Assembly (NCBI GenBank): GCA_009787745.1
Contig: WQST01000004.1
Location: forward strand, 1 to 33,286
Reading direction: 5' to 3'
Length of the DNA: 33,286 nt
Origin: Lachnospiraceae bacterium
Lineage (GTDB): Bacteria; Bacillota; Clostridia; Lachnospirales; Lachnospiraceae
Made by a program: the position numbers and the translations under genes. This document shows positions 4,228 through 23,655 of the stretch, one piece after another; position 1 is the stretch's first letter; the number at the start of each line of letters is the position of its first letter. The notes below the pieces were generated by a model. The model was not told where the DNA came from and searched no databases. It saw only the letters and a list, made by a program, of their open reading frames with translations.

Positions 4228-5397
4228 TTAACCAAGTGCTTTTAACAAACGATAAAATGCTGTTTCCAAAGTTTTACGCGGGCAGGCTATGTTAATACGC
4301 TCAAAACCTTCGCCGCATCCGCCGAATTGCCGCCCGCTGTAAAGCCAAAGCCCTGCTTTCTTAATAATCAAATCCTCTCGCTCTTCTTCATTCAGCGAAA
4401 GCCCGCGGCAATCAAGCCATATCAGATAAGTTCCCTCAGGTTCAATAAGCCGTATCCCTTGCAACCGGTTTTGCAGAAAAACTCTAACGAAATCAATATT
4501 ACTTTGTAAATATTGATTCAATTGCTCAACCCATTCGCGCCCGCCCTCATAAGCCGCCTGACTGGCAATCAAGCCGAAGTAATTAAGCCGCCCATAACCT
4601 GTTTTTGCCATCGCTTTATTGAACTTAACTCTTAAATCTTTATTGGCAATAAAGATATTAGCGACTTGCAAACCGGCTAAGTTAAAAGTCATGCTCGGTG
4701 AAGTTAGGTTAATCGTTATTTGTTCAAATTCCTTTTTTATTCCGGCGAAAACCGTGTGCTTATGACTGGGATAAACGAAATCACAATGACTTTCATCGCT
4801 TAAAACAATAACCCCATGACGGGCGCAAATATCGCCCATCCGTTTAAGTTCCTCATTTTTAAAAACGCGCCCAACGGGATTATGAGGATTACACAGGATA
4901 AATATCTTCACATTGTTTTTAATTATCTTGTTCTCAAAATCACCAAAATCAATTTCATAATGAAGGTTATTCAAGTGTAAATCGTTGGTCACTAATTTGC
5001 GGGAACTGTGAAGAATTTCATCACAAAAAGGATAGTAGACAGGCGGCTGAACAAGTATTCCGTCGCCCTTTTCCGTAAAAGCACGAATAGCCGTCGAAAT
5101 AGCAAAAACAATGCCCGGCGTTTTGACTAACCATTCTTCTTTTAACTTGTAATTATGATATTTACGATACCATTTTTCGATCGCGTTAAAATACTCACTC
5201 TTCGCTTCCGAATAACCGTATATACCCAGTTCAGCACCTTCTTTTACCTTGTCCTGAACACATGGCGGTACCCGAAAGTCCATATCCGCTACCCATAGCG
5301 GCAGCAAACCATCAGGTTTGCCGAGTTCCGCAGAAAAATCGTATTTCCACGAATTAGTATTTTTGCGGTCGATAATTTCATCAAAGTTATATTTCAT
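4228..5397 (-). CDS. PLP-dependent aminotransferase, PatB/MalY family (putative C-S lyase)
   Basis: MKYNFDEIIDRKNTNSWKYD...LPLWVADMDFRVPPCV...CNPHNPVGRVF...LSDESHCDFVYP. Confidence 0.9.
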   Translation of the reverse strand: MKYNFDEIIDRKNTNSWKYDFSAELGKPDGLLPLWVADMDFRVPPCVQDKVKEGAELGIYGYSEAKSEYFNAIEKWYRKYHNYKLKEEWLVKTPGIVFAISTAIRAFTEKGDGILVQPPVYYPFCDEILHSSRKLVTNDLHLNNLHYEIDFGDFENKIIKNNVKIFILCNPHNPVGRVFKNEELKRMGDICARHGVIVLSDESHCDFVYPSHKHTVFAGIKKEFEQITINLTSPSMTFNLAGLQVANIFIANKDLRVKFNKAMAKTGYGRLNYFGLIASQAAYEGGREWVEQLNQYLQSNIDFVRVFLQNRLQGIRLIEPEGTYLIWLDCRGLSLNEEEREDLIIKKAGLWLYSGRQFGGCGEGFERINIACPRKTLETAFYRLLKALG

Positions 5398-5856
5398 TCC
5401 AAAACCCCCGATTACAAATGTTTTATATTAGTTTTCCCGTAAATAATTATCCGGCTATTATGCGTAATATGCTTGTTAGATACTAAGACCCACCTAAGAT
5501 AAATCGCTTGGGCGGGAGGGGGAATAGTACGAATTATAAGCAGATAGTCACAATCACTAGCCATTATGTTATGGTACACAGACTATAAAACTTGTTATCC
5601 TTGACACACTTTAAGTATAGCACAAACTCATTATTTTTGCACGATAATTATAGTAAAAATTACCCAAAAATATCACCAAAAATATCCTGTTTTTTTTGAC
5701 AGATAAAGTTGTCTTTTGTGCTGAATTTACTTTGGCTTAGATATTGCTTTTTCATTCAATAAATTGTATGTTAATTATAGGTCACTTCATAGATTTATTT
5801 CGGTAATAAATGTAAAGCAACCGAGAATTAACAGCACAGGCACAGAAAGGAAAAAC

Positions 5857-7430: not shown

Positions 7431-8276
7431 TTAAGCAAGGGCTTTAATCTCATTTGAGTTTACCATAAATGTTGTTTTGCTTTCCAATCTATATTTTCCG
7501 ATTAAATCATCTACTCTTACGTTTTGATGAACAATTCCATGAATATCATTTAAAAGCTCAGTATAATTATCGGATTGAAAAATATTTCTACCAATAGATA
7601 TACCCTTTGCTCCGCAATCCATAGCATTGCTTATCATCGTTAATAATGATTCTGTATCCATCTGCTGCCCACCTGCGATTATTACCGGTATTTGACAACT
7701 TTCAATTACCTCTGCAAATCCTGATTTTGAATTACAATAATTCACTTTAACCATATCAGCACCAAGTTCATCCATAACCCGAACTGCATGTTTTATATAT
7801 TTAATATCCCATTCATTATCAATTTTATCACCTCTTACATAAACCATTGCAATTAAAGGCATTCCTGCATCATTACAATCCTGAATTATATTTGCCGTAT
7901 CTTGTAGCATTTTAGCCTCATATCCATTTCCTAAATTAATATGTATAGATACAGCATCACATCCCATTCGTACTGCTTCTTTAACTGTTGCTGTTTGAAT
8001 TTTTAATAATCCTGATGTGCTTAGTGCTGTGCTGCCCGATAAATGCATAATCAATCCTATATCATTATTGTTTAACAATTGATAATTATTCTTTATCGGT
8101 CCTCCATGCAAAATCATAGAATCTACAATTTTACACTCCATAATCTTTTGTAATGTATCTCCTAATTTCTCTAATCCTTTAATTGGACCTTCTGAGAATC
8201 CATGATCTAAGGGTAAAATAATTGCTCTTTCATGCCCTCTGAAAATACGGCTCATTCGTTTTTCTTTACCATTCAT
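7431..8276 (-). CDS. 2-amino-3,7-dideoxy-D-threo-hept-6-ulosonate synthase-like class I aldolase (MJ0400 / GriI family)
   Basis: MSRIFRGHERAIILPLDHGFSEGPIKGLE...MGCDAVSIHINLGNGYEAKML...PLIAMVYVRGDKI...GADMVKVNYC...PVIIAGGQ...GAKGISIGRNIFQ; RBS aggagg before ATG. Confidence 0.85.
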   Translation of the reverse strand: MNGKEKRMSRIFRGHERAIILPLDHGFSEGPIKGLEKLGDTLQKIMECKIVDSMILHGGPIKNNYQLLNNNDIGLIMHLSGSTALSTSGLLKIQTATVKEAVRMGCDAVSIHINLGNGYEAKMLQDTANIIQDCNDAGMPLIAMVYVRGDKIDNEWDIKYIKHAVRVMDELGADMVKVNYCNSKSGFAEVIESCQIPVIIAGGQQMDTESLLTMISNAMDCGAKGISIGRNIFQSDNYTELLNDIHGIVHQNVRVDDLIGKYRLESKTTFMVNSNEIKALA

Positions 8277-8287
8277 TTGTTATCCTC

Positions 8288-9055
8288 CTAATTAGTTATC
8301 TTCAGCAAATATTGTATATTTTTATACAATATATTATCCATATCACCATCATTACATGATAGCTGTTTTATATTCACTAAACCACATATCGGCTTATATA
8401 ATGGAAATTCACTTCCAAATATCAGCTTTGTACTGCCACATTTTTTTAGTGCTTCTTCTATTCCCGCGTAACTGCCTTGAGAAGTTTCCAGAAAAACATT
8501 GTCAAATTTCGCCGCATATTCTATCGCGTCCACATCTGACGGACCAAATCCCATGTGTCCAATAATAAATTTCGTCTTGGGAAAAAGTTTGGCTAAAGCT
8601 CCCATTTTTTTAGTAGAAGCACCTGGGGAGTATAAAGTATGGCTATAAAAAGGCACTTCCAATTGCCCGCATAGATCTGCCAAATCTAATACCGTTTGAG
8701 ATGCTAATGAAAAACCATGTATTAGAGGAGCCAATTTCAATCCGGAAAATCCTCTCTTTATCCCGCTTTCAAATTCTAATAAAGCTTCTTCTCTTTTTAA
8801 AGGATTTACACAATAAAAACCATAGAACTTTCCCGGTTCCTTCCTTATTATATTTTCAACAATATCATTGGGAATATATTCACCGTCCGGCTTTTCTTCT
8901 CCGGTAATATATTTTGTCATCCTTTTTACATTAACCATTCCTCCCGGCACCAAAACTGCTTTGTCTATACCTGCCAGCTTCATGTCATTATTTAATTCTT
9001 CAATCGTACCATAATTACTCTTTCCAATATGCGCATGTCCATCAATTATCATCAC
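8288..9055 (-). CDS. Amidohydrolase-superfamily (amidohydrolase_2) metal-dependent hydrolase
   Basis: IIDGHAHIG (HxH), PFYSHTLYSPG, KFIIGHMGFG, LIFGSEFP motifs. Confidence 0.85.
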   Translation of the reverse strand: MMIIDGHAHIGKSNYGTIEELNNDMKLAGIDKAVLVPGGMVNVKRMTKYITGEEKPDGEYIPNDIVENIIRKEPGKFYGFYCVNPLKREEALLEFESGIKRGFSGLKLAPLIHGFSLASQTVLDLADLCGQLEVPFYSHTLYSPGASTKKMGALAKLFPKTKFIIGHMGFGPSDVDAIEYAAKFDNVFLETSQGSYAGIEEALKKCGSTKLIFGSEFPLYKPICGLVNIKQLSCNDGDMDNILYKNIQYLLKITN

Positions 9056-10397
9056 TTTCCTCCTTTCCGTTAATATAGTTTACACGTCTGACTTTTTTCC
9101 CATCACAAGGTATTTTATCAACAATTTTAATCTGATTAGGCATCCCGCACCTATATTCAAGCTGACTGGAGATAATTTCTTCAAGCCCATCTCTATAAAT
9201 ACAGTTTGAAGCTAATTCGATAACAACCTCAGCCATATCTTCCCTTACATTAATAAAATAATTATCTCCCACCTCTTTTATATTCATTAGCATTTCCTCA
9301 ATATAAATAGGCGCATATTCTTTTCCATCAATTATTATCTGATCAATTTTTCTTCCTCTTAAATATAGCTTCTTTAATGGAATTCCACATTCACATCTAA
9401 AATGTTCAATAAATCCAATGTCCTGTGTTCGATATCGAACCAAAGGTGTCCCCTCCTTAAGAAGCGTTGTGACTACTATTTCGCCAATTTCGCCATCTTC
9501 CAACGTCTCACCTGTGTCCGGATTAATTATTTCCAGATAAACATGGGAATCCGGAATATGATACCCATCTTTTTTGCCGCATTCAATTCCCAAGGCTCCG
9601 CACTCTAAGGAACCATAGTAAAATCTTGCATCCGCATTCCATTTTGATTCTATTCTATTCCTAAATTTATTTGAACACCCTTCACCGGTAAGCCATATCT
9701 GCTCTACTAAAATATCTTCTTTCATATTAAATCCGCAATTTTCAGCTGCTTTCATTAATTCTATTACATATGAAGGTGAAGAAATTAAAACAGTACATTT
9801 AAATTCTTTCATTAATTCTATGGCTTTCGTTGGGTCGGAGTATGCCCCTCCCTTGCCAACCGGTAGGACGACAGCTTGATACCCTATTTGAGCAACTCGC
9901 TGAAAGGCTTGCCCCGCAGAACTCATTTCATATGGCAATGCAACCGCAACCACATCCGTTGCATTTAAATAAAATAGCTTTCCCCATTGAGGATATAAAT
10001 CACTGCCATACAAGTCATTGATAGTATACATAATTGATATACTTTCACCTCCGGATGTACCGGTAGATGTATGTACATGAAGAATCTCTTCTATAGGTAC
10101 ACATAGCAATCCATCTTTTTTTTTCCTTAACATTTCTTTGGAAAATAATGGTATGCGTTGAAATATATCCCATGTAAATTCTTGTTCAACATTATATCCT
10201 ACCTGATTTAATAGTCCATTATAAAAAGAATTTTTTTCATACAAATAATCCAATAGGTTTTTTAATGCGTCTTTTTGATAGCTTTTTAGTTTTATCGGTT
10301 CTACAGCCGTTATATCTCTCAATTCACTTGCATAATTCTTTAAAAAATGAAAAGAGCGACGACCTTGGGTGCATACATATTCAATTATTTCTCGCAT
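9042..10397 (-). CDS. Phenylacetate-CoA ligase (PaaK)-like adenylate-forming enzyme
   Basis: HTSTGTSGGESISIMYT P-loop, FYYGSLECGALGIEC, PLVRYRTQDIG, CECGIPLKKLYLRGRKIDQIII. Confidence 0.88.
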   Translation of the reverse strand: MREIIEYVCTQGRRSFHFLKNYASELRDITAVEPIKLKSYQKDALKNLLDYLYEKNSFYNGLLNQVGYNVEQEFTWDIFQRIPLFSKEMLRKKKDGLLCVPIEEILHVHTSTGTSGGESISIMYTINDLYGSDLYPQWGKLFYLNATDVVAVALPYEMSSAGQAFQRVAQIGYQAVVLPVGKGGAYSDPTKAIELMKEFKCTVLISSPSYVIELMKAAENCGFNMKEDILVEQIWLTGEGCSNKFRNRIESKWNADARFYYGSLECGALGIECGKKDGYHIPDSHVYLEIINPDTGETLEDGEIGEIVVTTLLKEGTPLVRYRTQDIGFIEHFRCECGIPLKKLYLRGRKIDQIIIDGKEYAPIYIEEMLMNIKEVGDNYFINVREDMAEVVIELASNCIYRDGLEEIISSQLEYRCGMPNQIKIVDKIPCDGKKVRRVNYINGKEESDDN

Positions 10398-10409: not shown

Positions 10410-11540
10410 CTACTTTTCAATAATTGTTTCATCAATTGCTACTCCCAGATGCCGTCCTTCTTTCATCATGCATCCTAATACAACATCTCCTTTAGTAAGT
10501 AAAACACTATTTTTCACTTCTCCTTTGCTACTGATTATTCTTATATGCCAATCATCTTGCACTATTACATTTGTGGGTTTTCCATTTTTAGAAATTGTTT
10601 TAATTAATAACATCGGACGCTTTTCCATCTTAATCCGGCCAACACTTACAGCTCTTGCTCTGCCTTTTGAGTTAATCACCATAACCTCATCTCCCGATTG
10701 GAGCTCTGATAAATATCTATATTTATTATCCGGACATAAAATATACGAATGAATTGCACCTGCATTTACCCGGAAGGGTCGTAAATCCATATATGGTAAA
10801 TAATGATTTTCAGAACTTACTAAAATACCTCCTGAAGATGTGGATCCTAAAATCATCCCTTCGTCATTATCCAATTTACTAATCGTATCAATACATACCC
10901 GATCGCCCATTCCTATGTGTTTAATTTCTTCCACCTTAAGTTCTTCTATCTCCATAGTCATATTTATCAAATTATCTATCTTCTTCTTCAATTGATTTAA
11001 TTCTTCAATATCAGATGTTTTAATAAGAACAGCTTGACTTCCCATTTCCATAGTCATTGTCGCAATCCATCCATCTTCACTATTAGAAATTATCTTACAT
11101 ATTGTATTCTTATATTCCTGAGAATAAGCTAATATTAATTCAAGGGGGATATTAGTGACTGATTGGAATTGAATAACAATTGTTTTATATGATGGACTTA
11201 ATTCAATTGCACGCTCCATGCTTTTTTTATCATCAATTGTAATAAATATTCCTTTTTCAATTGTTCCGACATCATCAATTAATTTTTCATCATTGCCATC
11301 TATTAATCCCAATATTCTTCTGTCACTATTTTCTCGTGTATACTTTTTCAACCGTTCTTTATTCTCTTTATTTATTTTTATCATAGTAATAATATTTCTT
11401 GATACTTTTTCCATCAATGAAAGTTGTTTTTCATTAATAAGGACACCATTGTATCCTACATTTACCGCATAATTTAGCAGCTTTTGCCCTTCCTTATCCT
11501 GTAAATCCGAAATATCTAACCATAATTGCTTTTTTTCCAT
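10410..11540 (-). CDS. 3-dehydroquinate synthase II family (archaeal MJ1249 type / GriH-like)
   Basis: GMGDRVCIDTISKLDNDEGMILGSTSSGGILVSSENHYLPYMDLRPFRVNAGAIHSYILCPDNKYRYLSELQSGDEVMVINSKGRARAVSVGRIKMEKRPMLLI...GRHLGVAIDETIIEK; likely start MEKKQLWLDI at 11540 with RBS ggagag. Confidence 0.9.
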   Translation of the reverse strand: MEKKQLWLDISDLQDKEGQKLLNYAVNVGYNGVLINEKQLSLMEKVSRNIITMIKINKENKERLKKYTRENSDRRILGLIDGNDEKLIDDVGTIEKGIFITIDDKKSMERAIELSPSYKTIVIQFQSVTNIPLELILAYSQEYKNTICKIISNSEDGWIATMTMEMGSQAVLIKTSDIEELNQLKKKIDNLINMTMEIEELKVEEIKHIGMGDRVCIDTISKLDNDEGMILGSTSSGGILVSSENHYLPYMDLRPFRVNAGAIHSYILCPDNKYRYLSELQSGDEVMVINSKGRARAVSVGRIKMEKRPMLLIKTISKNGKPTNVIVQDDWHIRIISSKGEVKNSVLLTKGDVVLGCMMKEGRHLGVAIDETIIEK

Positions 11541-11541
11541 G

Positions 11542-12762
11542 CTAATCGCTCTCCTTTTCATTTGCATTTTTGATGTAATAATTTGCTTTCCTTAATTTTG
11601 TAATTTTTAATAATTCATTTATTGGTTCTATTTGATGTTTAGAAACATATTTAACTTCATTTGAAATGGGTAGGTCAATTTCTTTGCATTTAACTATATT
11701 CATATATTCTTCTTGTTCTACAATGATTGTTAATATCCCTCCTTGAAATATCAATCTAAAGTATTTAGGATTCAATTTCTCATTTCCATAGATTTGGTTT
11801 TGAATATCAAGCATTGAAATGCATTTTTCTCTATTGCATATGGCATCAGCGAATCTCCCATGGTGAATGAGCATTGGCATTTGATTTCCGCATTGGCATT
11901 TTTCTTGTTTGATTTCTACAATATCCTCTGTTTGATATCTAATCAGCGGAAATGCTTCTTTATTCAGTTGTGTTACCGCCAACAATCCTTTTCCGGTATT
12001 TATTATTGCCTTCCGATCATCGATCTTAACGATCTCAAGATAATAATCAGAAGATATGTGCAAATTGCCATAAGCGCAGGATACGGCAATATTTGCTGTC
12101 TCTGTCATCCCATAGAAATTAAAAACTTTTGCTTCCCATAATTTTTCTATCTGCATTTTCCTGCCATCACATAACATTTCACCTGCCACCAATATCATTC
12201 TGACGGAAAAATCTTTTCTGCTGTCGAATCCAAGATGCTGTGCCACATCTGCTAAGACTACTGCTTCTGAGGGATTACAAACCAATATGGTTGCGTTAAT
12301 CTTTTTCATAATATTTATTACTCTTTGATATGGCGTAACCATTGAACCTCTGCTGACAGGAATAATTGTGGCACCATCATCAATTAGCATTCCAGTAAAT
12401 ATATGAGCCGGGACAGACAGTGCATAAGGAAATCGAATCAGGGCAATATCTTTCTTTGTGATTTTTATGTCTTTATCTCTAAGTTGCCTAGCCGCTTCCT
12501 GCATATCTTTACGTGAATACCATACCGATACCGATTCACCTGTCGTACCAGATGACTCATGATATTGTTGAATATCATCTATTTCAACTGATAATAAATC
12601 AAATGGATCACTTTTCTTTAGATCTTTTTTTTCTGTAAAATTAATTTTTTGAAACTCTTCAATATTCGAAATTGTTACCGGAATTTTTCTCTGTTTATAA
12701 AATTTACTTCTTTCTGCCTGAGCCAAAGCAAAATTTATTTTGCTTAATAATTTTTCTTCCAT
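11542..12762 (-). CDS. PaaK-like adenylate-forming enzyme (second, shorter)
   Basis: YHESSGTTGESVSVWYSRKD, FNFYGMTETANIAVSC, FPLIRYQTEDIVEI, CQCGNQMP; ATG at 12760-12762 with RBS aaggag. Confidence 0.88.
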   Translation of the reverse strand: MEEKLLSKINFALAQAERSKFYKQRKIPVTISNIEEFQKINFTEKKDLKKSDPFDLLSVEIDDIQQYHESSGTTGESVSVWYSRKDMQEAARQLRDKDIKITKKDIALIRFPYALSVPAHIFTGMLIDDGATIIPVSRGSMVTPYQRVINIMKKINATILVCNPSEAVVLADVAQHLGFDSRKDFSVRMILVAGEMLCDGRKMQIEKLWEAKVFNFYGMTETANIAVSCAYGNLHISSDYYLEIVKIDDRKAIINTGKGLLAVTQLNKEAFPLIRYQTEDIVEIKQEKCQCGNQMPMLIHHGRFADAICNREKCISMLDIQNQIYGNEKLNPKYFRLIFQGGILTIIVEQEEYMNIVKCKEIDLPISNEVKYVSKHQIEPINELLKITKLRKANYYIKNANEKESD

Positions 12763-12794
12763 CACATCTCCTTGGATTTTACTTTTACTACGAA

Positions 12795-13619
12795 CTAATT
12801 ATTACAAAGCATTTTATGAATCTTCTTATGAGGTATTTGACCTGACCAAAACTCTTTCTCTTTTTGGTATTCATCAAGATCTATATAATAAACCAATAAT
12901 CCGGCATCATCTTTTGGCAACCCAGCTAATATATAATCATCTCTTGAACTTTTAATTAAATCCTCACCACATTCTACATATCTTAAAATGGACGTCTGCC
13001 CCGAAAAATTAATTCTTGATACACTGCTTGTCCCCGTTACACATATCATAAATAAAAAGCAAGGAATGTCCATAACTCTTGATAATGCTATCTGTTCAAG
13101 AATAAAATCATATTCATAAGGAATTTGGGTTAAGCATATAATAAAATCTGTTTCAGACGCGGCTAATTTTTCACATAAAGCCAATGAATTTAGATCATTT
13201 CCAATTAATACTCCAAATTTACCGAATTCTGTTTCAAAAATATCAATTTTTCTTCCGGGTTTCATAAAATGCATTTCAAACTCATTAAGACATATTTTTC
13301 GATATTTCCCTAAAATATTTCCCTTACGATTAATAATGATTGCTGAATTATAATATGAGTAATTATCCTTTTCAAAAATTCCACCAATAACCATAGAATT
13401 TTCAGATTTTGCCAAATCTACCAAAAAATGAACTGTATCCCCCATCAAATCTTCAGCTGTTTCATCCAAATTAATTAAATTTATACTGGCTGAAAACAAT
13501 TCTGGTAAAATAATTAAATCAAGCGGCTTCTTAGCTTCACTAATTTTTTCATTTAAATCCATAAATAATAATTGTTTTGATTCAAATGTTACATCCGTTT
13601 GCAGCAAACATACATTCAT
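12795..13619 (-). CDS. Nitrilase-superfamily (C-N hydrolase fold) protein lacking the catalytic cysteine
   Basis: LIILPELF (Glu), GKYRKICL (Lys), GKFGVLIGNDLNS where canonical members have ICYD; Cys replaced by Gly. Confidence 0.8.
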   Translation of the reverse strand: MNVCLLQTDVTFESKQLLFMDLNEKISEAKKPLDLIILPELFSASINLINLDETAEDLMGDTVHFLVDLAKSENSMVIGGIFEKDNYSYYNSAIIINRKGNILGKYRKICLNEFEMHFMKPGRKIDIFETEFGKFGVLIGNDLNSLALCEKLAASETDFIICLTQIPYEYDFILEQIALSRVMDIPCFLFMICVTGTSSVSRINFSGQTSILRYVECGEDLIKSSRDDYILAGLPKDDAGLLVYYIDLDEYQKEKEFWSGQIPHKKIHKMLCNN

Positions 13620-13632
13620 CTCATTTATCCTT

Positions 13633-14496
13633 TCAATCGTTCTTAAAAATCAAATATTTCGTGACATTTTCTTCCGTGCAATTATTATATTTTTCACTCA
13701 TCCTGGTCATATATTTCGTGAGTGCATATATGAATTCATCACTTTTTTCTGATAATATGTCCCCAAAGGTACCTCTTGATAATATGCTTTGAATCATATC
13801 TTCCGCATTTTTATAATCTATTTGAAAAATTAATATCTCTTGATGAACCAATTCCATATTATTTTGTAATGCTGCATTGATAATTTCTTTTTCTCCCAAG
13901 GTGTCATTCCATACATTCATAACTTTTTCAGGTACTTTCGCTTCTTGGTAATGGCAATTTTTATTTGAAATTTTTATAATCGCTTTAAAAAGTTTATTAC
14001 CTGTAAATGTCACGGATTCTTTGCTTACCTTTACATTTTGCAATGTATAACCAGGGATAGAACATATAAAATAACCTTTTGATTTTAGTATCTTTGATAT
14101 GCCTATAAAAGCATCTTCATTTAACCATTGAATACCATAATTACAAGTTATCAGATCGGCTTGATAATTTAAAGTTCCTAAATCCCGACCGTCAATTTGG
14201 ATAAAATCGGCTCTATCAATCTCTTTTGCTTGTGCTTCTTTAAGCATTATTTGCGATATATCAACTCCTAAAAATCTTGCATTCTTAAATGTATCGCTTA
14301 ATTGTTTTGTCAGTATACCGGTACCGCAACATAAATCAAGAATATTGATATCCATTTCCTCTGATTTTATATTAAGAAAATTATATAAGAAATTGATAAT
14401 CCCATTCCCTATTTTCTGATAGTAATTTACATTACTGTGTGTTTCATAATCTTCGCCTAAACTATCAAATATCGCTTTATTATGTATTTGGCTCAT
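13633..14496 (-). CDS. Class I SAM-dependent methyltransferase (BioC/UbiE-like)
   Basis: NILDLCCGTGILTKQLSDTFKNARFLGVDIS, ADLITCNYGIQWL. Confidence 0.85.
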   Translation of the reverse strand: MSQIHNKAIFDSLGEDYETHSNVNYYQKIGNGIINFLYNFLNIKSEEMDINILDLCCGTGILTKQLSDTFKNARFLGVDISQIMLKEAQAKEIDRADFIQIDGRDLGTLNYQADLITCNYGIQWLNEDAFIGISKILKSKGYFICSIPGYTLQNVKVSKESVTFTGNKLFKAIIKISNKNCHYQEAKVPEKVMNVWNDTLGEKEIINAALQNNMELVHQEILIFQIDYKNAEDMIQSILSRGTFGDILSEKSDEFIYALTKYMTRMSEKYNNCTEENVTKYLIFKND

Positions 14497-14497
14497 G

Positions 14498-15640
14498 TTA
14501 TTTCTCCTTTGCAGTTAAACGGTTTCCGGCTACAGCCATAACAAATAAGATGATAATAAAAATTGAAATCATCCATATTTCATTTGAAATAAGCAAACTT
14601 TCCCCATTAAGAACATTATCCATTGCTATTTTCAGCCAATATGTAGGTGTTAATTTGGACAAAACCAACATATTCTCAGGCATATATAAGATAGACCAGT
14701 ATAATCCACCCAACATAGCTAAAACATTAATCAAAATATTTAATAATGCCAAAAACATATTTTTAGTTTTAGAAATAGATGACATAAAAGTGCCCAGCAT
14801 AAACCCAGTCAACCCTGATCCAAGAAGAACCAAAATGATATCAATAACCATTCCAGCATTCAAAGATTTTACCGCTAATAGCATAAATACTAAAATAACT
14901 AACAATTGTATTATATAGATCCCTAATTCACTCAGCAGTAATGATATTACATATTTTCCGTAGCTATATTTTGTCGTTGTAATTCTAGTTAATATCCCAT
15001 TCCTTTTATCTTGATAAAGCTTCATTCCAAAATAACAATTATAGTAAATCATGAAAAATATAATAAATCCCCAGAATACTTTAATCGCACTTGAAATACC
15101 TCTTTCTTCTTGATTGTCCTGCGGTATTATTAAATTTACTTTTACGGCATTTTCATTTATATCTTTCACAAATGACTGTAACTCAGTATCTGTATCAGTA
15201 AGATCACTTGCAATTACATACTGATGAAGATAGCTATTTATATCATAATCGACAAAAATATAAATGGAACTTTCTGTTAAACTCACTGACGTAATTTCAA
15301 TTGAATCATTATTACGTATACTTTCATATAAGCCCATTGGCAAAATGACTGCATAATCAATTTTATTCTTTATTAACTCATGTTGTATTTCCGAACCATC
15401 CAAAATCTTAATCGAGTATCGCTCACTAAGATACCGAATCATTTCATTACTAAATTCCGTTTTATCTTGATCCCAAATACCAACTCTACATTTTGAAACA
15501 AAAGAATTATCTGTTTGTTCTTTATCATCAGAGAAAATAATTATATTAAATAATATAATGGCAATGATGGGCAATAAAAACAAGATGAGTCTAAAAATGC
15601 CATTTAAATTTCTTTTCATATTTAGTTTAAGAATCATCAT
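14498..15640 (-). CDS. ABC-2 type transporter permease
   Basis: N-terminal TM, large extracytoplasmic domain, C-terminal TM cluster; next to an ABC ATPase and a second permease. Confidence 0.8.
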   Translation of the reverse strand: MMILKLNMKRNLNGIFRLILFLLPIIAIILFNIIIFSDDKEQTDNSFVSKCRVGIWDQDKTEFSNEMIRYLSERYSIKILDGSEIQHELIKNKIDYAVILPMGLYESIRNNDSIEITSVSLTESSIYIFVDYDINSYLHQYVIASDLTDTDTELQSFVKDINENAVKVNLIIPQDNQEERGISSAIKVFWGFIIFFMIYYNCYFGMKLYQDKRNGILTRITTTKYSYGKYVISLLLSELGIYIIQLLVILVFMLLAVKSLNAGMVIDIILVLLGSGLTGFMLGTFMSSISKTKNMFLALLNILINVLAMLGGLYWSILYMPENMLVLSKLTPTYWLKIAMDNVLNGESLLISNEIWMISIFIIILFVMAVAGNRLTAKEK

Positions 15641-16746
15641 TTGGCAAGCCTCCTTTTATTCGTTAAAACTGCAACAATAATCAAAATCGATGCCCCCGCC
15701 GCCATTACTTGAATATATTCAATAAACGATACAGAATTTGTTTCATATATTGTACTAAATAATACATTCTGGCATACTGCATTTGGCAGAAGCTGATTAA
15801 TCAATCTACCTGCCCCAAAATGATCCAAATCTATGATTACAAATCCTCCGGCTAAAAAAGTTGAACCTAAAATTATGATATTTGCTAATGTATAAGCAAT
15901 GCCATAGTCTTTAACCACTGAAATCAAAGCAAGCCCAAATAAATTTGAAAAGATAATAAAGATAAAAAGAATTGCTATTAGCCTAAAATAATTACTTCCT
16001 AAAAATACGCCATATACCATTTTATAAAAAATAAGCAATACCGAAATTTGCATGGCTACCAAAAGTATAGATGCCAATAAGACGCCTATATATATCGGTA
16101 GTAACCTGTTCGTTACTGAAAGTAGTCTTTCCTGTTTTCGTCCTATTAGGGTATCACTAATTATTTTAATTGCATACAGCGATCCAAATAAGCAAACTAA
16201 AACTGTGAGTGTTACACCATAATAATCAAATGCCCTCGGAATATGGTTATTAGATAACCCTCTTGCTTGTATATAAGTTTCCAGTAATCGATTTCCAATA
16301 ACATCATAATCATTGTAATTCACATTTTGATGTGTAAAAATATTTTGATTCCTTGTGAATTGTGTGAGAATAAATGTTATAATCGCCACTCCTTGCAGTT
16401 CTGGATCTTCAACTACAAAATTAATCTCATCAGAATCGTACCATATATATCCATGTATCTCGCCTAATAACAATGCATTGTCTGCCTCTGAATGATTATT
16501 CAAAATTATAGTTTCAGTAATATTACTTACTGCTTCTGCTGCAAATACGCTTTTTAAAGATTCCATATACATATCACCTTCTATTAGCGCTACTTTATAC
16601 TTTTCTGTTTTCGGTGCTTGAAAATCACCTTGTAGTGCATTGCCAACAATAAGAGCCAATATTGCCGGAAAAAAAACCATCAACAACATACTTGTATAAT
16701 CTCTTATTTCCCTTTTTAATGTATATTTAAATGTAGATATTATCAC
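15637..16746 (-). CDS. ABC-2 type transporter permease
   Basis: Same topology as the neighbouring permease; 4-nt overlap with it. Confidence 0.8.
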   Translation of the reverse strand: MIISTFKYTLKREIRDYTSMLLMVFFPAILALIVGNALQGDFQAPKTEKYKVALIEGDMYMESLKSVFAAEAVSNITETIILNNHSEADNALLLGEIHGYIWYDSDEINFVVEDPELQGVAIITFILTQFTRNQNIFTHQNVNYNDYDVIGNRLLETYIQARGLSNNHIPRAFDYYGVTLTVLVCLFGSLYAIKIISDTLIGRKQERLLSVTNRLLPIYIGVLLASILLVAMQISVLLIFYKMVYGVFLGSNYFRLIAILFIFIIFSNLFGLALISVVKDYGIAYTLANIIILGSTFLAGGFVIIDLDHFGAGRLINQLLPNAVCQNVLFSTIYETNSVSFIEYIQVMAAGASILIIVAVLTNKRRLAK

Positions 16747-16756
16747 TGATTAACTC

Positions 16757-17710
16757 CTAATCTCTTAATGTTTTGCCTGTTAAATGTAAAAAGATATCTT
16801 CCAGATTATTTCTTTTCATATTAATTGATAAAAATTTATAGTTTGTTCTTTCAATAACATCCAATATATGCTTTAATGAAAATGTATTCGCCTGCGCTTC
16901 AATTTCCAATACTTTTTCGTTTATACTGCACTTTACAACACCGATAATTTCATTCAATTGTTTACAAAGCTCATTTTGAATTTTTTTATCCAACATGATA
17001 AGGTATGTTTCATTTAAATTATATTTTAGTAGAAGTTCATTAGTATTACCGCTTTCAACGACTTTTCCTTTATCAATAATCAAAAGACGGTTACACAGGC
17101 TTTGGATTTCCTCCATATAATGAGAAGTATATATAATTGTTGCTCCCTGTTGGTTTAGTTTCCGTATCGATTCCATGATATGGTTTCTCGATTGTGCATC
17201 AATACCAACAGTTGGTTCATCCAAAATAATTATTTGGGGGCGATGGACAATAGCACAGCCGATATTAAGCCTTCTTTTCATTCCACCTGAAAATGTCTTG
17301 GGAAATTTATTCGCAACATCTGTTAATCCAATAAATTCAAGGGTTTGGTCAACATTATGCTTCCGTGTTTTATTATTAATACCATAAAGGCTTCCAAAAT
17401 ATTCTAAATTTTCTTTGGCAGTCAGATCTTCAAATATAATAATATCTTGTGGAACTAATCCCATATTCCTTTTTATATCTTTTAGATTCTTATCAAAATT
17501 TTTGCCTTCTACTAAAATTTCACCCTTATCTCTGTGAATAATTCCACTTATTATACTAATTGTTGTCGATTTGCCTGCTCCATTTGGGCCTAATAATCCA
17601 AATATATCTTGTTTGTCAATTTTGAAGCTTACATCATCAACCGCCACAGTATTTTGATATTTTTTATGTAAACCTTGAACTTCTAACATTGTTATGCTCA
17701 TTTTATTCAC
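16757..17710 (-). CDS. ABC transporter ATP-binding protein (drug/natural-product export type)
   Basis: GLLGPNGAGKSTT, FSGGMKRRLNIGCA, IIILDEPTVGIDAQ, YTSHYMEE. Confidence 0.93.
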   Translation of the reverse strand: MNKMSITMLEVQGLHKKYQNTVAVDDVSFKIDKQDIFGLLGPNGAGKSTTISIISGIIHRDKGEILVEGKNFDKNLKDIKRNMGLVPQDIIIFEDLTAKENLEYFGSLYGINNKTRKHNVDQTLEFIGLTDVANKFPKTFSGGMKRRLNIGCAIVHRPQIIILDEPTVGIDAQSRNHIMESIRKLNQQGATIIYTSHYMEEIQSLCNRLLIIDKGKVVESGNTNELLLKYNLNETYLIMLDKKIQNELCKQLNEIIGVVKCSINEKVLEIEAQANTFSLKHILDVIERTNYKFLSINMKRNNLEDIFLHLTGKTLRD

Positions 17711-17751: not shown

Positions 17752-18708
17752 TTAAATAATATAATTATTCCACATATATTTGCATCTTTTTTCTTTACAA
17801 AAAGTGTTTTCCCACATACCAAAATCCATTTCATCACTTATAATTTCTAATATTTCTTGTATACTTTTTCCTTCTAGAATATAATCGATGGTTTTAGCAT
17901 AAACCGCGGTTATAGCCGCCATGAACATTGGATCTAAATCACGACCTATCGTTTTAATCGATTCTACCCCTGTTTTCATTACCTCATCCAATAGGCATAA
18001 AGAACAATCTTCATTTACATCTAAAATGGATATTTCTTCCCCGCTTGACTGGATAATAAACTTTGCCCTGCATGGTATTCCCGTTTGAAGTCTTTCATCA
18101 TTTACATGCAAAAGACCACAAGTACTTTCTAAAAATGAACAGCCAAAATGTCCGAAAATTTCTACCTTTATTTTTGTATCGGTAACAATTTCTGTGATTT
18201 CTTCTAAGCTAAATGTATGTGGAAGAACCACCTTTTCAATATGCATTTCTTCGAGAAATTTAATGGTTTTTTTATTAAGACAGGTAAGAAATGTACTGGC
18301 AGTAACCGGGAAATTTATACCGGCTGCTCTTAATCGTATAAGATTACCTAAATCCCCTACAATTACTCTATCAACACCTGCATCAATTCCCATTTTTATA
18401 TATTCAATATATTTCTTATCACCATCATTATTGCCGGAAAAATTACAATCATTAAAATGAGGAAGGTTTGCCACCAATTCTACTTTTACACCATTATCAT
18501 GGGCGATTCTGACTGCTGTTTCAAAGTCTTGATACGGCATAATTGTTTTCCGATTATCAAAGCAAGACTTCTTGGCTCTTCCTGAAAAAGTCATTGAATG
18601 CCCATAATCAAACTCAAAACCGCCATATAATTCTCCTGCACCTGATTCTATCTGTAATTCTGTTGAATATATAGAATTAATCGGTGCTTTAATTAGTAAT
18701 TTCTTCAT
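17752..18708 (-). CDS. Peptidase U32-family protein (UbiU-like)
   Basis: ESGAGELYGGF, VDRVIVGDLGNLI, VEIFGHFGCSFLESTCGLL...GIPCRAKF...DCSLCLLDEVMKTGVESIKTIGRDLDPMFMAAITAVYAKTID. Confidence 0.85.
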   Translation of the reverse strand: MKKLLIKAPINSIYSTELQIESGAGELYGGFEFDYGHSMTFSGRAKKSCFDNRKTIMPYQDFETAVRIAHDNGVKVELVANLPHFNDCNFSGNNDGDKKYIEYIKMGIDAGVDRVIVGDLGNLIRLRAAGINFPVTASTFLTCLNKKTIKFLEEMHIEKVVLPHTFSLEEITEIVTDTKIKVEIFGHFGCSFLESTCGLLHVNDERLQTGIPCRAKFIIQSSGEEISILDVNEDCSLCLLDEVMKTGVESIKTIGRDLDPMFMAAITAVYAKTIDYILEGKSIQEILEIISDEMDFGMWENTFCKEKRCKYMWNNYII

Positions 18709-19606
18709 GATATGTCCTCCTAAAGGTATTTATGATATGTTCTAAATCAGACTTTTCAAGATCATAATCATGTATGACAAAAGTTATGTTTTCGTCTGCA
18801 TCTATTAACCATTCTTCTTGCATTTCTATCCGCCGATATAAAACATTGCCTAGCAAATTAAAATCTAATAATTTTTTATCCAATTGATTATGGCATGGTT
18901 GATAATCTATTCCATTACTATATTGCGACATTGTAATATCTATACTTTCATGGCAATGGTTTACGCAATTGCCAATCTCAAGATTTTTATGTTTAGCATA
19001 AGCACATTTTCTGGCAAAAGCTACCGCACAATTAGCTAAATGACAATTTATTTTCCATCCCCACTTCTGAATACGAGCTAATCCTCTCATTGCTTCCGGA
19101 AGAAGGCTTGTTTCGATACCTGTTATACCATAATTTTTCAAAAATTTATACTTAGAGTAGTCTGCCATGGTATTAGAAATCATATCATCACTAAATTCTT
19201 CATTTTCAAGTAACAGAAAATGCCAAGGGGTATCTTCCAAAGTTCTTGATAAGCTGCGGCCGACAAAAACCTGTGAAGGTAGAATTTTTCTATTATATGC
19301 TTCATATAAAACCCCGAAATCATTGATAACCAATTGATAATCTAAGTGATTATTTACCAGCGTTTGCAGCAAATCCATAATTTTTTCGAAATGAATATCT
19401 ACTACTTTAGGGGTAATTAATTTAGGCTGAAGACCAGCATTAATTATTGTGTTAAATATACTTATAATCTCTTTACTTGACGGCATATGAAAAATACAGC
19501 CTTCATCTCCTACGGATATAATATCTATTTCATATTTAAAATAATCTTCGGTTATATATTTATACAATAATTTATAGTTTCTAACGTGTAATTCTAATTT
19601 TGCCAT
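18689..19606 (-). CDS. U32-related, UbiV-like protein (putative Fe-S protein)
   Basis: GDEGC near position 37 and KC-x12-C-x3-C (RKCAYAKHKNLEIGNCVNHC); overlaps the U32 gene 17752..18708. Confidence 0.65.
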   Translation of the reverse strand: MAKLELHVRNYKLLYKYITEDYFKYEIDIISVGDEGCIFHMPSSKEIISIFNTIINAGLQPKLITPKVVDIHFEKIMDLLQTLVNNHLDYQLVINDFGVLYEAYNRKILPSQVFVGRSLSRTLEDTPWHFLLLENEEFSDDMISNTMADYSKYKFLKNYGITGIETSLLPEAMRGLARIQKWGWKINCHLANCAVAFARKCAYAKHKNLEIGNCVNHCHESIDITMSQYSNGIDYQPCHNQLDKKLLDFNLLGNVLYRRIEMQEEWLIDADENITFVIHDYDLEKSDLEHIINTFRRTYHEEITN

Positions 19607-19619
19607 ATTATCTTATCCT

Positions 19620-20438
19620 TTATATTAATTCTACATAGTTCTTAGCTTTTTCGATATCTGCCGATTTTAGATCAATTACATTAATATATTCATCATTATC
19701 CAGCTCAAGTATTTTTCCAAATGGGCCAGCAATAATGCTCCCCCCTTCAAAGCGTCCTTTCAAATAACTCACTTCTCCTACTCCGTTTACACCGATAATA
19801 AAAATACCATATTCATAAGCTTTTGCCAAAACCATTGACTTCCATTTATTAATAATAAAACTTTTATTTATTTCTTCATTTAAAGGACTCGGAAGCAAGC
19901 AAGGAGCAAAAATAATCTCTACTCCTAAGGCTACCATTTGCTTTATCATGTCTTCATAAAACATATCTATTCCCATCAATATGCCAACCCGTCCAATATC
20001 CAAATCAAATACTTTTTTTTCTACTCCTTTGACAATAAATTCTGCTTCGCGGTAAAAGATATAGTTTCTCTCCTGCGTTCCGATTATTTTTCCTTTTCTA
20101 TTTAATATAAAGCCTATGTTACGATATCTTCTATCTTTCCCTTCATTATCAACAGAGCCTGTAACCCCACCAATAATATAACAGTTATACTTTTCTGCCA
20201 ATTCTGATAATTTTTTTATTGCTTTATTTCCGCTAAAAGCTTCCGGAATACTTGTAAAATTATAGGAACTTCCGGTATAAAATTCTTCCGGCATTACAAT
20301 CACATCTGTTTGCGGATTTGCTTCCATTAGCTGTGTTATCTTTTCTTCAACACTCTTTATATTCTCATATCGATTTTTAGTGCCAAATTTTGAACCTAAT
20401 ATTTTAAGCTGAATTACTCCTACTTTTATATTTTCCAT
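19620..20438 (-). CDS. Nitrilase-superfamily protein lacking catalytic Cys (and apparently Lys)
   Basis: MENIKVGVIQLKILGS...VIVMPEEFYTGSSYN...GTQERNYIF...GRVGILMGIDMFYED; ATG at 20438 with RBS aaggag; frame stays open upstream to a TTG at 20594. Confidence 0.75.
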   Translation of the reverse strand: MENIKVGVIQLKILGSKFGTKNRYENIKSVEEKITQLMEANPQTDVIVMPEEFYTGSSYNFTSIPEAFSGNKAIKKLSELAEKYNCYIIGGVTGSVDNEGKDRRYRNIGFILNRKGKIIGTQERNYIFYREAEFIVKGVEKKVFDLDIGRVGILMGIDMFYEDMIKQMVALGVEIIFAPCLLPSPLNEEINKSFIINKWKSMVLAKAYEYGIFIIGVNGVGEVSYLKGRFEGGSIIAGPFGKILELDNDEYINVIDLKSADIEKAKNYVELI

Positions 20439-20616
20439 TAAACACCTATCTCCTTGTTTGCCGATTATTTCATCAAGGTAGTTGTCAAATTGCACTGCTT
20501 CTATAAACTTTCTCTCCATTTGTAGTAAAATAGTATCGTCACACACAATCTCACCAACAAACGGAGACGAAAATTTATGGTTGTTATGTTCCAAGCTAGT
20601 TTAACAATCACCTAGG

Positions 20617-20772
20617 TTACTTCATCCTTTGTAACCGCGCCGCCATATTTTCCGGCTCTTTGGGCTGATTATAAAACACCCAGCATGCGGCTGATATCTC
20701 GTTTTGCGCAACTTTGCGAGCTAAAGACGCTGCTCCTTTGAGCAATGGATTGGATTTATCTTGGTTCTTCAT
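20617..20772 (-). CDS. agrD: AgrD-like cyclic autoinducer prepeptide (51 aa), not in the supplied ORF track
   Basis: MKNQDKSNPLLKGAASLARKVAQNEISAACWVFYNQPKEPENMAARLQRMK*; overlaps the 3' end of agrB by 17 nt; amphipathic N-terminus, core Cys, and an acidic/proline tail NQPKEPENM typical of AgrD. Confidence 0.88.
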   Translation of the reverse strand: MKNQDKSNPLLKGAASLARKVAQNEISAACWVFYNQPKEPENMAARLQRMK

Positions 20773-21358
20773 AATTCATTACCACCTTTCTTTTTATATG
20801 CTTAGCATATGTCATGCTTCCTGTAACAAACATCATAGATAAAGCTATTGCTAAAAAAATACTGTTTGCGTTTGAGAACATTCCAATTATTACAATAAGT
20901 GACATCACCGATACCAATATTCTGCTTTTTATTCTGAGTACTTTTTGCTGTCCTTGGTAAATAGGTTTATTTTCATGTTCAACTGGTGCTAAATTATAAA
21001 TAATACAAACCGATATTAATGAAGCTAAGATAGCAGTAGCTGAATAAATTTGAATTGGCATTAATGATATAATAATCAACATCGAATTAAAAATAATTGC
21101 AAATGTTATGATACAGCTCCAGTGTTGTTTCGCATGATGCCCCCCGGCAAAACGCCTTAACAGAGCAAAGCAAACCATAAAGACAACACCCTCTATAACC
21201 AATCCAAAAAAAGTTGAAAGCATCAAGCAAAGCAAAATATGTATCGTAGTTGAAATGATATTCTCAAACGCATATGTATAAATATCTTCTTCTTCAACCT
21301 TAGCTACATTACCTGATATTAATACTAATGTTGCTTGTTTTGCCAGTCTATGAATCAT
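20756..21358 (-). CDS. agrB: AgrB-like accessory gene regulator / autoinducer-processing peptidase
   Basis: RRFAGGHHAKQHWSC contains the H-x6-C catalytic pair; multiple TM segments. Confidence 0.92.
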   Translation of the reverse strand: MIHRLAKQATLVLISGNVAKVEEEDIYTYAFENIISTTIHILLCLMLSTFFGLVIEGVVFMVCFALLRRFAGGHHAKQHWSCIITFAIIFNSMLIIISLMPIQIYSATAILASLISVCIIYNLAPVEHENKPIYQGQQKVLRIKSRILVSVMSLIVIIGMFSNANSIFLAIALSMMFVTGSMTYAKHIKRKVVMNYEEPR

Positions 21359-21413
21359 AGCATTAAACCTCCTACTGTAACGATATCATTTATCAAATAG
21401 TTGTACAATACCT

Positions 21414-21441
21414 ATTGCACGAATAGTATCTCTCATTGCAC
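21414..21441. promoter_or_regulatory. Direct repeat with 21-bp period upstream of agrB (candidate LytTR/AgrA site)
   Basis: ATTGCAC at 21414-21420 and 21435-21441 (GTGCAAT on the coding strand), in the agrC-agrB gap. Confidence 0.4.
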
Positions 21442-21568
21442 CAAAAAATAAAACTACTTATTTTTATTGAAATATTTAATTATATTTTAAGAGAAACACA
21501 AAATAATTTATGAAATCTTTGTCGAATATTTAAGTTGAATAAAGAAAAATAGAATAAAAGAATTAGTA

Positions 21569-22879
21569 TTAAAGCGGAATTAAAATATGTAACAAGAACA
21601 TGTCTTCGTCATAATCATAACTCAATTTCCCCCCCAATCTCAAGCAGCTTTCCTCCATACTCTTAAGCCCGATGCCATGATGAAGCATATCCTGCTTCAG
21701 GGTTTCTATTCTCCCCTCCCGTAGCTTAGGCTTCGCACCAATCGTATTTTTTACTTCGCATAGCAACACATTTTCAGATATGCGGAGCTCTAAGTCAATA
21801 AATAAATGTATTAAATCACCGGCGCGCCGGCAAGCTTCAATAGCGTTTTCCAATGCGTTTCCAACAATCGAGCAAAGCTCAAGTACCGGAATGGGTAACT
21901 CCGGCAGAATTTGAATCAACCAATCACATTGAATATTTTCCTGTTCGGCTACATTACGCTTCGTTGTCAACATAACATCAAGCATGGGATTCCCTGTATC
22001 CAGCATTAACTGAGTATTATTATGATATTGCACTAATTCATTAATGCGAAGTGAAAGTTCTTCATATTGACCCTGTTCTATAAAAAATTGAAACGCATTG
22101 ACATGATGTCTAAAGTCATGAGCCAATTGTTGAATATGTGTACGGCTTTCTGCTAATTTCAAACTATGTTCACGATGCGCAGTTAGCTGAGCCTCAGTAA
22201 CCGCCAGCTTTTCCTTATCTTCCGATCTTCGGAGTAACCCTTCAATAATGGAAAAAATAATGACATTTGAAAAAAGCAAACTAAGAATGCTAAAAATAAG
22301 CAGAAAAGTTATCGGCTGACCTTCACTTGTAGAAGTGTAAAAGATTTGCACCGAAATAAAGATTGATAGTAAAGGAAGAATACATAAAATCATCCATTGT
22401 TTAGGTGGTAAATTATTAGTTTTTCCTTTTCTGAAACGGATCAATATATTAATGAATAAAAAAAGCAGAAGATTCGCAACGACGTTTACTTGATATCTAA
22501 AACTGTTTACTCCAAGCGTGTCATTGATTTCAATGCCTTGGAACAAAACAATCACAAACGCGCCCAGAGATTCAAAGACAACACTAAAAAGAATTTTCAA
22601 TAAGCCGATAATTCCATACCAATATAATTTTGCTTTACAAAATGAAAAAGAAATTAACACCGATATAAAGATGGTTTTAGCTACTATCATTATCAATATA
22701 CCATTCATGTATATAGAAACTATAGCTGATATTAAGACAGCTAAAGCACAAACTAAAAAGCCGGTTTTTTTAGATATGTTCCGCTTTTGCTTTAAAAATC
22801 CCTCCGCCATCATCTTCATAATAAAAACTTCAAAGCAAGCAATACAAATTTCAAAAAATACCCAGAGCATATCGAACAT
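21569..22879 (-). CDS. agrC: AgrC-like sensor histidine kinase (GHKL ATPase)
   Basis: N-terminal multi-TM sensor, QQLAHDFRHHVNAFQFF H-box, VGNALENAIEAC N-box. Confidence 0.88.
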   Translation of the reverse strand: MFDMLWVFFEICIACFEVFIMKMMAEGFLKQKRNISKKTGFLVCALAVLISAIVSIYMNGILIMIVAKTIFISVLISFSFCKAKLYWYGIIGLLKILFSVVFESLGAFVIVLFQGIEINDTLGVNSFRYQVNVVANLLLFLFINILIRFRKGKTNNLPPKQWMILCILPLLSIFISVQIFYTSTSEGQPITFLLIFSILSLLFSNVIIFSIIEGLLRRSEDKEKLAVTEAQLTAHREHSLKLAESRTHIQQLAHDFRHHVNAFQFFIEQGQYEELSLRINELVQYHNNTQLMLDTGNPMLDVMLTTKRNVAEQENIQCDWLIQILPELPIPVLELCSIVGNALENAIEACRRAGDLIHLFIDLELRISENVLLCEVKNTIGAKPKLREGRIETLKQDMLHHGIGLKSMEESCLRLGGKLSYDYDEDMFLLHILIPL

Positions 22880-22890
22880 ATATGATCCCC

Positions 22891-23595
22891 TTATTTTCTA
22901 TATCTTCTATATGTATCCTTTAAGTTGTCTCTAAATTTAGGGCCGATAGATAATGATAAATTATTGGTAAATGTAACACAGTCGTCCGTGATAATCCATA
23001 CCCACGCCATATTGATTAAATAAGAACGGTGACATTGGACGAAACCATATTGTGACAACTTTTTAAGCTCCTCGGATAATTTTCCCCAATATTCGCATTT
23101 CAAAGTTCTTGTGAAAGCGCATATTATATGGAGGTTACTCTCCATATAAAGTACATCTTGTAATTGAATTGTTCCAACTTGTCCGCCTTTTAATTTCACC
23201 TCATAAGGTGTTAAATTCTTGCGGTTAAATAAATTAATTAATTTTTCTAAAATATTATAAATTGCCTTTTCTCTGATAGGTTTTACAATAAAACCGGCCG
23301 CCATAACATCAAAACCACGCGGCATATAATCAGCTAAATTCGTTACAAAAACTATTTGCACATTCGTATCTACAACGCGAATATGCTCAGCTGCTTCGAT
23401 ACCGCACATTTGCGGCATCGAGATATCAAGAAAAATAATATTAAAGCTTTCTTTAACCGCATCTTCCAAAAGATTTACCGCAGAAGTATATGTAGAAATA
23501 AAAAAACCTAATTTATTAATAATGGAGTACTCTTCAATTTCCTTACGGATTATACATAATTGCTGTTGATCATCATCGCATATCGCAATACGCAT
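22891..23595 (-). CDS. agrA: AgrA-like LytTR response regulator
   Basis: MRIAICDDDQQQL, IIFLDISMPQMCGIEAA receiver; C-terminal LytTR domain (LYMESNLHIICAFT...FVQCHRSYLIN); start MRIAICD at 23595 with RBS aaggagg. Confidence 0.88.
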   Translation of the reverse strand: MRIAICDDDQQQLCIIRKEIEEYSIINKLGFFISTYTSAVNLLEDAVKESFNIIFLDISMPQMCGIEAAEHIRVVDTNVQIVFVTNLADYMPRGFDVMAAGFIVKPIREKAIYNILEKLINLFNRKNLTPYEVKLKGGQVGTIQLQDVLYMESNLHIICAFTRTLKCEYWGKLSEELKKLSQYGFVQCHRSYLINMAWVWIITDDCVTFTNNLSLSIGPKFRDNLKDTYRRYRK

Positions 23596-23655
23596 AAAAT
23601 TCCTCCTTAACCCCTCGATTACACTATAAAGCACAAGAATGTCACTTTTTTAAAC

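Follow-up and report, generated by a model that had tools for sequence, protein, structure and literature searches.

What does a pair of U32-type proteins do in a biosynthetic operon of an anaerobe? The question is raised by a 33,286-nt stretch of Lachnospiraceae DNA (contig WQST01000004.1 of assembly GCA_009787745.1, positions 1 to 33,286; hereafter the window) from an anaerobic gut-type bacterium. An earlier, sequence-only reading had proposed that two adjacent, overlapping genes here form a UbiU/UbiV-like pair inside a biosynthetic cluster. The UbiU-UbiV heterodimer carries one [4Fe-4S] cluster per subunit, and these clusters are needed for O2-independent ring hydroxylation (PMC6747719); the oxygen donor is reported to be prephenate, as summarized in PMC11574389. 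We therefore compared the two window proteins, their operon and their relatives with UbiU-UbiV and with other U32 groups.

The U/V pair and its operon

Both open reading frames are present and overlap by 20 nt, as the sequence-only reading had claimed: U (positions 17752-18708, 318 aa) and V (18689-19606, 305 aa), both on the minus strand. U is a U32 protein that matches the Pfam family Peptidase_U32 (PF01136, E 2.8e-26). V, which we describe as UbiV-type, matched no Pfam or NCBIfam model whatever, so its putative U32-like label rests on profile comparison and not on a domain match. Searching PDB sequences with U or V returned no relative, and a tblastn search of plasmids with V returned no match. 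AlphaFold models built from two-sequence input were of low confidence for U and V (mean pLDDT 45 and 42, respectively), and Foldseek with the low-confidence U model retrieved nothing but generic alpha/beta barrels at TM values around 0.3.

The pair does lie within a dedicated biosynthetic operon, comprising 13 co-directional minus-strand genes between 20594 and 7431, whose intergenic gaps range from -26 to +41 nt. The first gene encodes a carbon-nitrogen hydrolase (19620-20594, PF00795), V is second and U third. Downstream of U come an ABC transporter ATPase (16757-17710, PF00005), two ABC-2 type permeases (15637-16746 and 14498-15640), a BioC/UbiE-like SAM methyltransferase (13633-14496) that is a candidate O- or carboxyl-methyltransferase, and a second carbon-nitrogen hydrolase (12795-13619, PF00795). 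Scans for promoters and terminators did no better than shuffled sequences.

The remaining five genes correspond to the closoxazole set, clxA-E. They encode a ClxA-type aryl-acid ligase (11542-12765; best PDB match 9s3l/9s45, E 5.1e-93); a ClxB-type member of the 3-dehydroquinate synthase II family (10410-11567; PF01959, E 2.6e-101), of the 3-amino-4-hydroxybenzoate (3,4-AHBA) synthase type and related to BagC/FevH; a ClxC-type, PaaK-like aryl-acid ligase (9042-10397); a ClxD-type condensing amidohydrolase (8288-9055, Amidohydro_2); and a ClxE-type ADTH synthase, or DhnA-type aldolase (7431-8276; NF005556 above cut-off). The ADTH synthase and 3,4-AHBA synthase of a closoxazole-type cluster are thus both there, as are two aryl-acid AMP ligases and a condensing amidohydrolase, with ClxA identified by its PDB match and ClxC and ClxD by family only. 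Among these predicted assignments ClxA is the firmest; residues Y219, T222 and N226 of the 9s3l/9s45 chain fit the published numbering of Clostridium cavendishii ClxA (PMC12519233). According to PMC12118335, ClxE and ClxB make 3-amino-4-hydroxybenzoate, ClxA joins two such units, ClxD closes the benzoxazole and ClxC adds a third unit. Judged from its sequence, the operon encodes enzymes that make 3-amino-4-hydroxybenzoate (ClxE, ClxB), ligate it (ClxA, ClxC) and close the benzoxazole (ClxD).

The window genome holds a second ADTH synthase and 3,4-AHBA-synthase-type pair at a contig edge (L052, G000:C9:1-1703), next to aminotransferase-like, radical-SAM-like and carbamoyltransferase-like genes, which makes a second AHBA-derived cluster in this genome.

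Directly upstream of the operon, a complete agr-type system occupies 20617-23634, also on the minus strand. It consists of a small ORF for a 51-aa AgrD-like peptide precursor ending ...SAACWVFYNQPKEPENM... (20617-20772), AgrB (20756-21358, PF04647), an AgrC-like GHKL histidine kinase (21569-22879) and an AgrA-like LytTR response regulator (22891-23634). The system is likely regulatory, and may turn the operon on by cell density.

Cysteine patterns and relationships of V and U

In E. coli UbiV the cluster ligands are C39, C180, C193 and C197, in the motif CXnCX12CX3C (PMC6747719). The sequence-only reading had named these residues correctly, and the spacings that it gave for both window proteins are accurate: C37 and C201-x12-C214-x3-C218 in V, and C190-x6-C197-x15-C213-x21-C235-x2-C238 in U. 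On alignment, the four V cysteines fall at exactly the four UbiV ligand positions and are invariant across 14 V-like and 9 proteobacterial UbiV proteins aligned jointly. Because the invariance extends over both groups and coincides with the published ligand motif, we do not regard the pattern as chance. A profile alignment of V-like proteins with UbiV likewise paired all four cysteines. The column of UbiV C39 contains cysteine in 100% of the V-like and UbiV proteins and in 0% of the UbiU, U-like, TrhP and RlhA proteins examined, and V-like and UbiV proteins both lack the first canonical U32 cysteine and retain the other three.

Overall similarity was less discriminating. The 14-member V-like profile matched proteobacterial UbiV (probability 95%, E 3e-8) and RlhA (probability 96%, E 1e-9) equally strongly, and gave no alignment with UbiU. 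Similarity alone is therefore undecisive for V, and we rejected a classification of V as a plain UbiV orthologue on that basis. V-like and UbiV proteins formed one clade in three of four trees (support 100/99, 97/96 and 99/94), a grouping that was lost in the fourth, to which more divergent U32 proteins had been added and for which a faster alignment was used; long branches meet in these trees, as the program warned, and the grouping is sensitive to them. Kinship of V with UbiV is, from these comparisons, probable. We also considered V as a TrhP1-type subunit and rejected this, as the probable TrhP1 in our set (L142, a short U32 ORF whose neighbor in a Bacillota genome is TrhP-like) groups with TrhP and not with V. 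Several V-like proteins (L025, L026, L057, L058 and L101, and also L020) have an N-terminal extension of about 150-200 aa, in which a scan of three of them (L020, L025 and L058) gave no significant Pfam match.

U proved harder to place. It scored 62 bits against the NCBIfam UbiU equivalog NF047963, below the cut-off of 440, and 60 bits against the TrhP equivalog, below the cut-off of 534. Its C190, C197 and C213 are invariant and occupy canonical U32 cluster positions; C235, C238, C304 and C309 are also conserved, in nearly all U-like proteins. This set of cysteines differs from that of UbiU and of every other U32 group examined. UbiU ligates its cluster through C169, C176, C193 and C232, in the motif CX6CX16CX38C (PMC6747719). 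U had been described as close to this pattern, but the likeness is partial: equivalents of C169 and C176 are present by both alignment methods, but that of C193 is absent and four other cysteines are conserved. C213 of U aligned with UbiU C232 in one alignment and with the fourth TrhP/RlhA ligand in another. We discarded the x15 spacing of U as evidence for UbiU, since this gap is shorter or much longer in other U-like proteins and is thus not a conserved spacing. The four additional cysteines could provide an extra ligand for the first cluster or a second metal site.

By profile, U-like proteins score slightly higher against TrhP and RlhA than against UbiU, and in trees they form their own clade (support 100/98) outside UbiU, TrhP and RlhA. 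The branching order among these four groups was not settled by topology testing, with a union of U and UbiU neither favored nor rejected (AU p 0.43). The sequence-only reading had taken grouping with TrhP or RlhA as one of the outcomes that would speak against it; U and V both fell outside those two clades. Its broader proposal of a UbiUV-type pair holds in that paired U32 genes occupy the operon and V has the UbiV-specific upstream cysteine, and does not hold in that U shows no particular closeness to UbiU.

Conservation and other settings of U/V pairs

Anaerosporobacter faecicola (strain KCTC 15857), another member of the Lachnospiraceae, has an identical gene order: regulator, AgrB, carbon-nitrogen hydrolase, V and U, followed by transporter, methyltransferase, carbon-nitrogen hydrolase and clxA-B-C-D-E. 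Its U and V are 62% and 41% identical to those of the window and retain all cysteines named above. It was the sole match in a scan of named genomes with the U alignment. The same four agr parts lie upstream of its operon, but there the AgrD-like ORF precedes AgrB. A. faecicola also has a tandem of U32 ORFs (4690-5796 and 5793-6920 of L102, G166:C15:262500-274000, minus strand) between NRPS-like genes; these belong to another subgroup, in one clade with the single U32 proteins of L103, L104, L105, L106, L110 and L111.

Across 299 genomes of the same family, PF01959 occurred in two, those of the window and of A. faecicola, both of which carry a close V; one further genome had a distant V and no PF01959 match. 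V-like and PF01959 genes were both rare among 391 genomes sampled from the class and, the window genome aside, coincided only in one genome (G655), at separate loci. This rarity and separation imply that U/V has no general link with AHBA chemistry.

The two genes do appear to be tied to one another. We found 16 adjacent U/V pairs in Bacillota, 14 in Clostridia-type genomes and 2 from a phylum sample, and a V-like gene adjoins the U-like gene in every U-like locus examined. Distances among U and among V proteins are strongly correlated (Mantel r 0.94, p 5e-5, 12 pairs), as expected for subunits of one complex.

Several of the 16 pairs lie in unrelated biosynthetic clusters. One clostridial locus (L020, G586:C5:166000-185999) combines U/V with several aryl-acid ligases and a ClxD-like amidohydrolase, and the stretch that was read contains no AHBA synthase; its product is possibly a new benzoxazole-type compound. 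This locus also encodes a chorismate mutase-DAHP synthase fusion, which we count in favor of the function proposed below, and a prephenate-dehydratase-like protein of 219 aa; given the latter, the prephenate genes of L020 might instead supply a building-block pathway. Two loci (L010 and L023, in G099:C4 and G323:C1) have U/V with a UbiA prenyltransferase, a B12-radical SAM protein, a squalene-hopene-cyclase-like protein that carries a fused MacB-like domain, and two 2-hydroxyglutaryl-CoA-dehydratase-like proteins with their ATPase. In another genome (L021/L058, G535:C63), two different U/V pairs lie about 10 kb apart in a single cluster with B12-radical SAM proteins and a carbamoyltransferase; a second V is also found in G495. 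Other pairs lie near a radical SAM protein and carbamoyltransferase (L024) or near NRPS-like genes, a SPASM radical SAM protein and ABC transporters (L025), and four (L026, L057, L100 and L101) have no obvious cluster around them. A search of the open literature for U32 or UbiU proteins in Clostridia, in natural-product work or in biosynthetic gene clusters found no account of such pairs; as the search covered open papers, the absence of reports is not proof.

Proposed function and comparison with known systems

We favor, with somewhat better than even confidence, the reading in which U/V is a heterodimeric, UbiUV-type Fe-S oxidase serving as a tailoring enzyme of a closoxazole-type pathway. 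Its chemistry would be an O2-independent oxidation, most likely ring hydroxylation. Each subunit would bind a [4Fe-4S] cluster, and the complex would hydroxylate, without O2, an aromatic ring in either the 3,4-AHBA unit or the finished benzoxazole, probably with prephenate as the oxygen donor. In ubiquinone synthesis, hydroxylation and O-methylation alternate; by analogy, the hydroxyl so introduced may be capped by the methyltransferase of the operon. In favor of this reading, the window genome has a prephenate dehydratase gene, which is truncated by a contig end at the place expected for a chorismate mutase domain. As the ORF is cut at this point, we set aside the idea that chorismate mutase is missing from the genome.

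U/V could instead be an Fe-S enzyme of the same pathway that catalyzes something other than hydroxylation, such as reductive dehydroxylation, dehydrogenation, sulfur or nitrogen transfer, or oxidative coupling. The unusual cysteine set of U, unlike that of any other U32 group examined, fits this idea, as do the very different chemistries (radical SAM, carbamoyltransferase, UbiA/cyclase, NRPS) among which related pairs sit. The characterized U32 Fe-S enzymes in the literature consulted, however, are hydroxylases (PMC11574389, PMC6747719), and we rate this alternative as a clear minority possibility, though the strongest of the competitors.

That U/V modifies RNA in the manner of TrhP/RlhA, perhaps for self-protection against the cluster product, we consider improbable. 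By profile, U lies at about the same distance from TrhP/RlhA and from UbiU, V matches RlhA as well as UbiV, and TrhP1-TrhP2 of B. subtilis is likewise a U32 heterodimer (PMC11574389). Against this stand the position of both clades outside TrhP/RlhA, the grouping of the probable TrhP1 with TrhP and not with V, and the company that related pairs keep with unrelated clusters. Moreover, the window genome has separate TrhP-like and RlhA-like U32 proteins of its own, from which we conclude that U/V is not its RNA modifier.

Hardly any weight falls on U being a true peptidase whose substrate would be the AgrD signal peptide or some other peptide from this locus, as the Pfam name Peptidase_U32 and the adjoining agrBD genes might suggest: AgrB is itself the AgrD protease, the cysteine conservation points to metal ligation, and around most related pairs the 20 kb that we examined contain no match to AgrB. 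The pair is equally unlikely to be a bystander with no part in the product since, although C. cavendishii closoxazoles are described with clxA-E alone and without mention of a U32 pair in the accessible text of PMC12118335, here the two genes overlap each other inside the operon, their cysteines are invariant and their order is conserved in two genera.

Beyond the oxidase that we favor lies a wider generalization, which we advance tentatively and at less than even confidence. U/V pairs might be a distinct and widespread class of oxygenases for natural products in anaerobes, in which V would hold a UbiV-type cluster and U a three-cysteine cluster with an open catalytic iron site plus a second metal site at C235/C238/C304/C309, and which would use prephenate or another organic donor on many small-molecule scaffolds. 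The U32 hydroxylases characterized so far have quinones and RNA as substrates. If the generalization is true, the recurrence of U/V in benzoxazole, radical-SAM, terpenoid- or quinone-like and NRPS clusters would represent the anaerobes' own O2-independent tailoring oxygenase system. Because 3,4-AHBA and the benzoxazole, in contrast to ubiquinone intermediates, are small, soluble substrates, the operon could also provide an in vitro assay, which the UbiUV field lacks, and such an assay could test prephenate directly as the oxygen donor.

Compared with clxA-E of C. cavendishii and pfxA-E of Pyxidicoccus fallax, the window has all five core enzyme types but adds U/V, a methyltransferase, two carbon-nitrogen hydrolases, an ABC exporter and, next to the operon, an agr system. 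TrhP and RlhA, Fe-S hydroxylases that depend genetically on prephenate, share the U32 family with the pair, and U retains three of their four ligand positions. Neither window protein has their full motif (CX6CX15CX3/4C), as U lacks the third cysteine and V the first, and V, unlike them, has the UbiV-type upstream cysteine.

The pair resembles UbiU-UbiV (YhbU-YhbV in E. coli) in consisting of two adjacent, distinct U32-type genes, with V carrying the CXnCX12CX3C motif at aligned positions and joining UbiV in most trees. It differs in the ligand set of U, in its very low sequence identity and in its anaerobe natural-product setting, in an operon without quinone genes. A UbiT (SCP2) gene adjoins proteobacterial UbiU-UbiV pairs, and none is found in the window operon, the genome having two SCP2-domain ORFs elsewhere. 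Because the defining UbiU features that we tested are lacking in U, the pair should not be filed as UbiU-UbiV itself; plausibly, it works like UbiU-UbiV.
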